Of a DNA stretch of 34,317 bases, positions 2,456 through 25,314 are shown in pieces (positions within the stretch are counted from its first letter, which is position 1; every line of letters starts with the position of its first letter). The stretch covers positions 1-34,317 of the forward strand of contig CANOSP010000018.1 of NCBI GenBank assembly GCA_947569705.1, given 5' to 3'. The notes beneath the pieces are model-generated. The model made no database searches and had not been told where the DNA came from. It saw nothing but the letters and a program-made list of their open reading frames with translations. The stretch is from an uncultured Erysipelotrichaceae bacterium. GTDB taxonomy: Bacteria; Bacillota_I; Bacilli_A; Erysipelotrichales; Erysipelotrichaceae. The position numbers and the translations under genes were made by a program.

Positions 2456-2499
2456 ACAAAAAAATCCCCGATTACACCTTACAGACAAGATGAAATCAG
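2456..2499 (-). terminator. Rho-independent terminator of the sigma factor gene
   Basis: On the minus strand CTGATTTCATCTT (2499-2487) pairs with AAGGTGTAATCGG (2480-2468) across a 6-base loop, with one T-T mismatch and two G-U pairs, and is followed by GGATTTTTTTG. It separates the sigma factor gene from the surface protein gene. Confidence 0.7.
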
Positions 2500-2536
2500 A
2501 GTCAGTTCGATTTTTTTTAATCCGATCAAACTTTTT

Positions 2537-3574
2537 TTATAATAAACCAAGATACGCTGCTTCCCAGCCTATTTCCTGTAAGCGGCGATAATAAGAACAG
2601 TTGCTTGATTTTAATGCATCATACAGCGGTTTAAGATGATATAATTCTTCCTTGCTCATTGCTTTTAATTCAACCTCACAATGCGCAAAAACAAGTAATG
2701 AATAATAAACCTGATAAGGAGATTTATAAGTTACACCGTCAAGTTCTAAGGGTTCAAAAATCTGTTCATTTTCTAAATAGCGCATATGCGAATCCGTTGG
2801 TTTCAAATAAGACAATACACCGGCAGAAAGTGCAATCACAAGGGATAATGCACCGATAGCGATTGCTTGTAATACATTTCCTGAAAATGTGTTTTTTATT
2901 TTTCCCAAAAAGCTTGTTTCGATTACGGGAGAACCCATACCGATGTCAAAGGCATGAAAGAAAGCCGCGGTTAAAATACCCGGTGTAATCTCTTTGAAAT
3001 CCAGTTGGACACCCTCTTTTTTCTCATACTCTACCACTTTCTTCTTCAATAAATTACGTGCCGCAAATAATCGCGATTTTACCGTACCTACCGGCATATC
3101 CATAATTTCAGCGACTTCTTCCATACTTAATTCCCGATAATATGTCAGAATTAACAGTATACGATATTTCTGCGGTAATTCATCGATTAAGCTGTTTAAA
3201 ACATCTATATCACTTTGCCTGCGATTCGCTTCTTTAGGCATCAAATACTCACGATATTCTGCTTCATTGTTTAACATACTGCTGGTATCCGGATCCACAG
3301 AAACATCCTTGCGGCGCGCAAATAAGTTATAGCACTTATTTACAATCATACGATGAAGCCAAACATCAAATGTCTTTGGATCCTTCAGCTGTTTAATTGA
3401 GCGATGAACTTGAATAAACGTCTGTTGTGCAATCTCTTTTGCATCATCATCGCTTTTACAAATGCGATAAGCACTATAATAAACAGACTGATAAAGCTGT
3501 TCAAATAAAAGATTAAAGGCTTCTTCATTTCCTGCCTGTATCTGTAAAATCAATGATGCATCTGTCTTATTCAT
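2537..3574 (-). CDS. ECF-type sigma factor with C-terminal transmembrane anchor and outer domain
   Basis: 345 residues from the ATG at 3574, chosen because AGGAGTG lies 7-9 bases upstream; an in-frame ATG 17 codons earlier (3625) has no SD and precedes a TTGACA/TATTCT promoter. Residues ~14-90 match sigma region 2 (AKEIAQQTFIQVHRSI, FDVWLHRMIVNKC). Residues ~125-180 match region 4 with its helix-turn-helix (LSMEEVAEIMDMPVGTVKSR). The usual ECF protein ends near there. This one continues through a linker to a hydrophobic helix at ~224-247 (VLQAIAIGALSLVIALSAGV) and then ~98 residues that should lie outside the membrane. No anti-sigma gene is adjacent. Inference: the tail anchors and may control the factor, replacing a separate anti-sigma protein. 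The downstream surface protein gene is a candidate target. Family assignment is sure; regulation is not. Confidence 0.9.
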   Translation of the reverse strand: MNKTDASLILQIQAGNEEAFNLLFEQLYQSVYYSAYRICKSDDDAKEIAQQTFIQVHRSIKQLKDPKTFDVWLHRMIVNKCYNLFARRKDVSVDPDTSSMLNNEAEYREYLMPKEANRRQSDIDVLNSLIDELPQKYRILLILTYYRELSMEEVAEIMDMPVGTVKSRLFAARNLLKKKVVEYEKKEGVQLDFKEITPGILTAAFFHAFDIGMGSPVIETSFLGKIKNTFSGNVLQAIAIGALSLVIALSAGVLSYLKPTDSHMRYLENEQIFEPLELDGVTYKSPYQVYYSLLVFAHCEVELKAMSKEELYHLKPLYDALKSSNCSYYRRLQEIGWEAAYLGLL

Positions 3575-3592: not shown

Positions 3593-3621
3593 AGAATACA
3601 AATAACTAAAGCATTTGTCAA
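3593..3621 (-). promoter_or_regulatory. Promoter of the sigma factor gene
   Basis: Minus strand TTGACA (3621-3616), 17-base spacer, TATTCT (3598-3593). Transcription would start around 3586, leaving a very short leader that barely includes the SD. A second TATAAT at 3652-3647 lacks a convincing -35 and is the alternative. Confidence 0.6.
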
Positions 3622-24804: not shown

Positions 24805-25314
24805 TTATCCTTGTCTTTTAATCATTCGTTTATTAAACGCTCGTATTTTCTTGCCATAGTGACTTGAATACAGCAACCCCACCATTAGCATTCCCACTGC
24901 AAATCCCTGCACAATATCCAATCCAACCGCTATTTTTGAATTATCATAAAGGCTCGTATCTTTCAAAAGCGTATAGGCTAATATTAAAAGCATCGCTGTA
25001 CCATTGCATATCCGCACCCGTTTATTGTATCGTTCTGCTTCTGTGTTTGTATAATTCACCGCCTGTAATACAGTATCTTGTATTTCTTTATCCATATTCT
25101 CGCTTTTCCTTTCTCCGTTCAGAACTTCCCGTAAGTCAACTTCATAATAATCTGATATTTCAATCAAAATATCTAAATCCGGCATATTGTAACCATTCTC
25201 CCAACGAGATATTGTTCTGTTTGATACATTAAATTTTTCTGCGATTTGTTCTTGGGTAAGTCCTTTTTGCTTACGAAGTTCTCTTAAGAACTTTCCGATT
25301 TTTTCTTGATTCAT
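24805..25314 (-). CDS. XRE-family regulator with two C-terminal transmembrane segments
   Basis: 169 residues. Residues ~5-60 are a Cro/C1-type helix-turn-helix (LRKQKGLTQEQIAEKFNVSNRTISRWENGYNMPDLDIL). After a polar linker, two hydrophobic segments occur at ~102-118 (ICNGTAMLLILAYTLL) and ~131-149 (GLDIVQGFAVGMLMVGLLY), ending in a basic tail. Such membrane-linked XRE proteins are common in Bacillota; the ligand is unknown. The SD AAAGGAG lies 7 bases before ATG. A TATAAT at 25335-25330 would give a very short leader and lacks a good -35. Confidence 0.9.
   Translation of the reverse strand: MNQEKIGKFLRELRKQKGLTQEQIAEKFNVSNRTISRWENGYNMPDLDILIEISDYYEVDLREVLNGERKSENMDKEIQDTVLQAVNYTNTEAERYNKRVRICNGTAMLLILAYTLLKDTSLYDNSKIAVGLDIVQGFAVGMLMVGLLYSSHYGKKIRAFNKRMIKRQG

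Follow-up and report, generated by a model that had tools for sequence, protein, structure and literature searches.

A gene in the window (the whole stretch of 34,317 nucleotides analysed here, which is contig C18 of a 2.13 Mb genome in 57 contigs, G000) encodes a membrane-tethered ECF sigma factor that probably acts, judging from sequence comparison, as sensor and switch in one protein for the surface-protein gene directly behind it, at a site whose surface-protein head is exchangeable. The sigma gene lies on the minus strand at the coordinates given by the original prediction, with its ATG at 3574, its stop codon at 2537-2539 and an AGGAG-type ribosome-binding site, read in the sequence, 5' of the ATG (Table 1). 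Sigma regions 2 and 4, predicted to be normal, were both matched in Pfam above cut-off and other sigma regions were unmatched, as in the ECF (group 4) class, and the nearest solved structures are those of sigma-E, AlgU and SigW. The AAC-type -35 and short -10 at fixed spacing that mark ECF promoters were found as NAAC-N17-NNNC in the intergenic regions, where they are assigned to these sigmas by covariation. The presence of a transmembrane helix C-terminal to region 4, as in sigmas of the ECF48/52/53 and IutY type, was rightly predicted and agrees with hydropathy and charge, but the helix lies at about residues 237-257, some 10 residues later than the 224-247 proposed, and it is followed by about 88 rather than 98 residues. 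In 65 homologs the hydropathy of the best helix has a median of 1.88 and is never below 1.53. Net charge is higher before than after the helix in 61 of them, a bias that fits a sigma inside and a C-terminus outside in a topology predicted from hydropathy and charge.

Table 1. Features of the sigma gene, its protein and the neighbouring surface-protein site in the window
Feature	Position	Strand	Basis
Membrane-tethered ECF sigma factor P0001, 345 aa	2537..3574	-	Translation, Pfam
Sigma region 2 (residues 6-92), with N79 and N83 as likely -10 readers	3299..3559	-	Pfam Sigma70_r2 at 23-89, promoter covariation
Sigma region 4 (residues 124-181)	3032..3205	-	Pfam Sigma70_r4_2 at 126-174, alignment
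Cytoplasmic linker (residues 182-236), F193 nearly invariant, without Cys-x-x-Cys zinc anti-sigma motif	2867..3031	-	Alignments, motif check
Predicted transmembrane helix (residues 237-257)	2804..2866	-	Hydropathy, charge
Predicted outer domain (residues 272-345): beta hairpin and six short helices, Y290 invariant	2540..2761	-	AlphaFold2, alignment
Vegetative sigma-type promoter of the sigma gene, TTGACA-17-TATTCT	3593..3621	-	Scan, family-wide enrichment
ECF-type surface-gene promoter: GAAC at 2508..2505, 17-nt spacer, TGTC at 2487..2484, after a T/A tract	2484..2508	-	Motif search
Surface-protein gene with signal peptide and repeats, running off the window and contig end	2..2380	-	Cadherin match over cut-off

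The CxxC motif was found between residues 100 and 257 in 0 of 65 sequences, and the family therefore lacks the zinc anti-sigma motif of ECF48/52/53. A search of the C-terminal part against protein families, proposed with the original prediction, gave no Pfam or NCBIfam match for the extension of the window protein, and the extensions of the 25 own-genome paralogs matched Pfam six times, every match being confined to one member and having an E-value no better than 0.017. It had also been claimed that no anti-sigma gene is adjacent, and the neighbours, named by eye, are indeed EF-Tu upstream and a secreted surface protein downstream. The suggestion that sensor, tether and sigma factor are combined in one chain is well supported: 65 homologs have the same layout, and the outer domain is under purifying selection. 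A promoter belonging to the sigma gene itself was likewise borne out, with a vegetative-type site of a kind that is enriched family-wide, whereas the proposed terminator could not be confirmed: a scan gave no terminator-like site between the sigma gene and the next gene, a stretch that holds the promoter of the latter.

The source genome carries 25 tethered-sigma copies including that of the window, to which the others are 26-38% identical, and hydropathy places a membrane helix at the same position in all 25. Two ordinary short ECFs of this genome also match the window sigma. A profile of the extension recovered tethered sigmas from all seven genus genomes examined, at 12 to 26 copies each: 25 in G000, 24 in G111, 26 in both G086 and G132, 22 in G050, 17 in G146 (86% complete) and 12 in G159 (66% complete), the five genomes with 22-26 copies being nearly complete. 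Outside the genus, one strong copy was found among 195 sampled genomes of the family, in a member of another genus (G038, E 1.5e-36), and samples of the order (294 genomes), class (395) and phylum (392) added no strong copies. Beyond the genus and G038, the family, order, class and phylum samples gave weak matches alone (E 4e-6 to 1e-3), several with in-frame stops, and all eight matching loci in viral contigs matched in the sigma part only. Relatives of the window sigma include a protein of Bacterium c-19 (98% identical), one of an uncultured Erysipelotrichaceae bacterium (75%) and one of Erysipelotrichales bacterium A81. The two ordinary short ECF genes (L030:5933-7205 and L031:5369-6617) each overlap the gene that comes next, which encodes a one-helix protein, an arrangement typical of sigma/anti-sigma operons, and the window itself holds at 24805-25314, on the minus strand, a helix-turn-helix regulator whose C-terminal half resembles, by eye, two membrane helices and which would be another DNA-binding protein with a built-in membrane part.

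We read the genes following 65 sigma copies (all 25 of G000, all 26 of G132, 13 of the 22 of G050 and the one of G038) and found the next gene of at least 120 aa on the same strand in 64, the exception (L088) lying on a 3.7-kb contig with an ORF on the opposite strand. A signal-peptide hydropathy threshold was passed by 62 of the 64 same-strand partners; the two that failed are both from G000, one a 137-aa fragment and the other (L019) just below the threshold. The gap from sigma to partner is 71-641 nt (median 256). Where both ends of the partner ORF are in the sequence (43 ORFs), its length is 1,641-2,066 aa in 36, and 37 carry GGAxT(G/A/S)(D/S) before a last helix and a basic tail. Four partners scanned against Pfam gave one cadherin and two MBG_2 matches above cut-off, and the start of the surface gene in the window was picked by its ribosome-binding site and signal peptide. 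There are two sortase genes in G000. The putative anchor motif is GGAxTGD (for example at L010:7694-7714) rather than LPxTG, with 25 exact DNA-level matches in the genome and 0 in a reversed control, and it is possibly an unusual sorting signal. Surface ORFs of four G050 loci (L095, L096, L097 and L100) end early, two of them sharing the last residues GIPCNDEN, and these may be broken genes, assembly effects or short forms.

Promoters of two kinds could be recognised at these sites. Upstream of the sigma genes, a vegetative-type promoter with at least 10 of 12 matches was present in 43 of 62 cases compared with 3-11 of 62 in ten first-order random sets; within the window stretch such scans gave 10 sites against 11.4 in its shuffles, i.e. 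no excess. For the surface genes, an ungapped expectation-maximisation search was run on 62 intergenic regions, leaving out two partners shorter than 300 aa and the exception L088, and was seeded with AAC and C at the spacing first seen by eye. The motif found consists of an A/T tract, [G/A/C]AAC, 17 bases and NNNC. In its strict form, [G/A/C]AAC-N17-NNNC, it occurs in 42 of 62 intergenic regions versus 4-12 in 30 dinucleotide-shuffled sets, and the same seeded search on 12 shuffled sets reached total scores of 772-849 versus 1,060 for the real set. A matrix trained on G000 ranked the intergenic regions of other genomes above their own shuffles in 35 of 38 cases. Five promoters scored below 9, and two of these, within 10 nt of the sigma stop codon, were set by hand and then used. 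Scores of at least 15 were obtained for 44 of 62 intergenic regions versus 1 of 62 regions upstream of sigma genes; autoregulation of the sigmas through an ECF promoter of their own is consequently not supported. Both the GAAC and the TGTC element of the surface-gene promoter in the window are kept in Bacterium c-19. No recognisable promoter of the NAAC-N17-NNNC type accompanies the single copy outside the genus (G038, locus L086, C3:188500-200500), which adjoins a surface gene of at least 2,855 aa and is a possible ancestor or transfer.

The -10 letters of these promoters covary with sigma residue 83. In G000, 14 different -10 tetramers occur among 24 called promoters, and TGTC is used six times, so that some pairs are not set apart by their -10 alone. 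An identical tetramer was seen in all 22 orthologous pairs in which both promoters were called versus 21 of 276 paralogous pairs. Covariation between sigma columns and promoter letters was calculated on 58 pairs (four with scores below 11 were dropped), cut to 36 below 55% sigma identity, and compared with 200 permutations, a null that ignores relatedness beyond the removal of redundancy above 55% identity. Among 320 columns, residue 83 ranks top for the first -10 letter (z 8.8; 95% null limit 5.44, highest null 6.68) and also for the second (z 6.3; 95% null limit 4.7), where it is less secure because one null run (6.63) exceeded the observed value. From residue 83 the first letter is correctly predicted for 28 of the 35 non-redundant pairs, compared with 0 of 35 by the majority letter, and the second for 26 versus 17 of 35. 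The third letter goes best with residue 79, at a z of 5.7 that is under the 95% null limit of 5.81 and close to that of residue 302 (5.6), and residue 79 predicts it in 28 of 35 pairs versus 25 of 35 by majority. Residue 193 is also above the null limit for the first letter (z 5.9), and in the non-redundant set M151 of region 4 covaries with the base that follows AAC (z 5.4).

Tallied over all 62 pairs, with orthologs counted, Asp83 occurs with CGTC, CGAC or GGAC (9/9), Met83 with CATC (4/4), His83 with CTCT (3/3) and Thr83 with CGTC (2/2). Asn83 goes with TGTC (15) or TGGC (2) in 17 of 18 promoters, the other being CAGC; Arg83 is found with GTTC or GTAC in 9 of 15 and also with GGTT, TATC and AATC, and the 11 sigmas with Lys83 have mixed tetramers. 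In M. tuberculosis sigma-H, N88 reads position -10 and N92 the -11 pair, with W81 forming a pocket (PMC6411747). N88 and N92 stand 7 and 11 residues after that Trp, and N79 and N83 of the window protein are equally spaced (+7 and +11) from the invariant W72; the Trp residues were matched by this spacing, with sigma-H itself unaligned, and E. coli sigma-E, which was aligned, has Asn at both places. In the present family residue 83 varies between paralogs along with the promoter letters, which sets it apart from the sigma-H case. The pairing is credible chiefly because covariation returns a residue known to read these bases, and from the ECF-type promoter in the intergenic region and the covariation of its -10 with residue 83 we conclude that each sigma very likely drives the neighbouring surface gene.

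Sigma and promoter stay in place while the coding sequence behind them changes. For every one of the 25 G000 sigmas there is a reciprocal best match in G132 (66-83% identical), and yet the head of the surface protein, defined as its first 450 aa, finds its best match in the head of the ortholog's partner in 0 of 22 pairs with usable surface genes, identities being 23-57% or none. Synteny of the sigma sites between these two genomes was seen in 12 of 25 ortholog pairs and not in 10, including that of the window, with no data for three, in a comparison limited by short contigs and small spurious ORFs. Between G000 and G111, in which sigma genes are 91-99% identical and 18 of the 24 G111 sites were read, the head is changed at 15 sites and kept at three (94-99.7%). 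The heads still align, at 28-59%, in seven of the 15 changed sites and do not in eight. At all 15, sigma and promoter stay, and the point at which homology is lost lies 0 to 454 nt downstream of the -10; relative to the surface start codon, it ranges from 462 nt upstream to 325 nt downstream. Three near-identical heads (98.8%, 91.6% and 82.9%) were found in different species behind sigmas that are 30-34% identical to each other, indicating that heads move and come to stand behind other switches. Identity in the stalk is about 75-83%, and along most of it copies from one genome are at least as similar as copies from different genomes. Genome comparison shows sigma and promoter as a fixed expression site whose variable head is replaced between strains.

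The outer domain is conserved site by site. Identities for orthologs (G000/G132) and paralogs (within G000), respectively, are 85.5% and 40.5% in region 2, 84.5% and 40.0% in region 4, 58% and 16% in the inner linker, 56.5% and 14% in the helix, 48% and 8% in the outer linker, and 74% and 29% in the outer domain. In 18 G000/G111 pairs, dN/dS is 0.07 in region 2, 0.05 in region 4, 0.18 in the inner linker, 0.23 in the helix and 0.24 in the outer linker, and its value of 0.12 in the outer domain (residues 284-345) indicates that this domain is under purifying selection. Y290 is invariant in 61 of 61 sequences. AlphaFold2, run with four sequences, modelled residues 262-345 with a pLDDT of 88.8 and pTM of 0.77, and the full-length protein with a mean pLDDT of 61 and pTM of 0.32, the sigma regions and outer domain being better than the rest. 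Neither Foldseek against the PDB (best E 1.5) nor VIA-align (best Z 4.1 over 62 residues) gave a clear solved relative of the outer domain, and a PDB profile search with the extension returned 0 matches up to E 1. The site-wise conservation together with the changes of head suggests that each site keeps a conserved sensor of its own, independent of the head that follows, which speaks against sensing of the site's own head.

On the evidence of these comparisons, the sensor-sigmas are most likely made constitutively, tethered and freed by proteolysis, each controlling a site with an exchangeable surface head. The vegetative promoters suggest that the sigma would be present but held at the membrane, and the tether would keep it inactive. 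A signal at the site-specific outer domain would then release or expose the sigma, most likely by two cuts of which the second would fall within the membrane and be made by an M50 protease. G000 encodes an M50 protease (C6:23602-24588), and since such proteases are present in 14 of 14 control genomes, its presence lends weak support to proteolytic release. The freed sigma would then initiate at the next gene's NAAC-N17-NNNC promoter, a step for which covariation argues strongly, reading the -10 letters via residue 83 and probably 79. As genome comparison shows, sigma and promoter stay fixed, and the head is replaced between strains and turns up behind other sigmas in other species. We give about an even chance to a wider proposal of sigma-keyed surface variation, in which some 25 fixed sites, each with a sensor-sigma and a promoter matched to residue 83, show heads pooled across species by horizontal transfer, and in which signal and head are re-paired over evolution, so that the lineage randomises the pairing of signal and surface.

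Two other accounts concern what the tether and the outer domain do. The sigma might never be cut and might work while tethered, with the surface gene transcribed at the membrane in coupling to secretion of its ~190-kDa protein and the outer domain acting by conformation or clustering; ToxR and CadC, which are membrane transcription factors, offer a parallel. The linkers flanking the helix, being poorly conserved and probably flexible, would give such a sigma reach, and a zinc anti-sigma motif and an anti-sigma family match are both absent. However, the poor conservation of the helix, at about 56% among orthologs and 14% among paralogs, makes it seem a plain tether rather than a signalling helix, and IutY, a studied sigma with a membrane extension, is freed by proteolysis (PMC8999054), and we consider permanent tethering unlikely. 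Alternatively, the outer domain could sense the surface protein of its own site as an assembly or feedback checkpoint, an idea favoured by the one-to-one pairing of the two genes and by the outside location of both parts. That the head differs at 15 of 18 sites with sigma genes still 91-99% identical, and that partner heads are best matches in none of the 22 ortholog pairs of two species, makes this improbable. A variant in which the outer domain recognises the shared stalk, the anchor or the signal-peptide end that stays at some sites may be considered, but such recognition alone would not explain why outer domains differ so strongly between sites (29% identity).

The two remaining accounts deny a function to the extension or a reality to the exchange. 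If the extension were a passive leftover, the sigmas would be constitutively active and all surface proteins steadily expressed; no known domain was found in it, which would suit that account, but the lower dN/dS of the outer domain than of the outer linker (0.12 versus 0.24), the invariance of Y290 and the confident predicted fold leave it very improbable. The head differences could also have arisen without replacement, through misassembly of repetitive genes or rapid divergence in place. Contig ends within surface genes are frequent, some of the genomes are metagenome assemblies, and alignable heads at seven of the 15 changed sites would fit divergence. Against this, the joins of sigma, promoter and head lie outside the repeated stalk, a single point, scattered between sites from 0 to 454 nt past the -10, marks the fall in similarity from 90-98% to almost none, three of 18 heads are unchanged, near-identical heads recur in other species behind unrelated sigmas, and Bacterium c-19 bears a strain name; we regard artefact or divergence as a highly doubtful explanation. 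Tethered sensor-sigmas that are released by proteolysis, with true replacement of heads, is the reading we prefer.

Sigmas with a C-terminal membrane extension are already on record, as ECF48/ECF52/ECF53 (SCO4117) and IutY (ECF243), and share with the window family the C-terminal fusion of an ECF sigma to a membrane helix and an outer part; proteolytic activation is reported for IutY and expected for ECF48/52/53 (PMC8999054). The extensions of ECF48/52/53 are described as having a zinc-finger anti-sigma domain (HxxxCxxC) and that of IutY as a fused anti-sigma for siderophore signalling (PMC8999054). A single sigma protein with a membrane extension is already known, and the window family is a variant without the zinc anti-sigma motif. 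Unlike these known groups, it has no CxxC in residues 100-257 and no family match, occurs in 22-26 copies in each of the five nearly complete genus genomes, and stands beside a surface gene in nearly all copies read. What is new here is that there is a set of such sites, that their promoter code can be read in part, and that targets are swapped while the sigmas before them stay constant; a literature search found no publication on such a sigma/surface-gene set (most subscription journals lay outside its scope).

Several known systems share parts of this arrangement. The ECF sigma, anti-sigma and SusCD arrays of Bacteroides likewise put many ECF switches, each at a surface-protein locus, into the genome of a gut bacterium, but there sigma, anti-sigma and receptor are separate proteins, whereas here there is one protein and the target coding sequence is exchanged behind the switch. 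Clostridium thermocellum SigI/RsgI provides several sigma switches with outer sensor domains and extracellular protein targets in a Gram-positive genome; it differs in that RsgI is a separate anti-sigma and SigI is not an ECF sigma, and we know of no target swapping as part of that system. In the expression sites of antigenic variation (Borrelia vlsE, Trypanosoma VSG), fixed sites take exchangeable variable coding sequence, but in the present case about 25 sites each have a sensor-sigma and promoter of their own, and head swapping is known from comparing genomes. Dozens of paralogous sigma-promoter pairs in one lineage, with a reading code that is partly visible in the sequence and testable, bear on the evolution of ECF specificity and on insulated switches. 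They also suggest that a Gram-positive gut commensal controls a surface repertoire that is large and changes fast by means of a single protein at each site, without a separate anti-sigma.

Three surface genes that stand second in a tandem have no sigma of their own (L136:448-5748 on contig C24, L135:1244-6277 on C28 and L134:8660-13375 on C2), each directly following another surface gene after an element of about 110 bp, and they may be co-transcribed or be silent head donors. The element forms a long hairpin (ACAGGTGTTTTT...AAAAACGCCTGT) flanked by GTAGACA/TGTCTAC, with examples at L135:1106-1220, L136:320-436, L134:13390-13504 and L010:7819-7935, and gave 41 profile matches in the searched loci, some of which overlap. 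It lies at most 120 nt past the stop codon in 19 of 37 complete sigma-linked surface genes (12 in one orientation, 7 in the other), is found inverted in some leaders before surface genes, and may terminate transcription, be mobile or serve as a site of recombination. The stretch with CACCTGTTT in 5' leaders, considered as a regulatory RNA, occurs in 6 of 62 leaders and is part of this element. The window contig ends inside its surface gene, and C28 (L135) probably continues it, because locus L064 of c-19 is similar to the window as far as the promoter and, beyond it, to C28:3713-7454 (86%); if so, G000 has two surface genes in the place of the single one of c-19.
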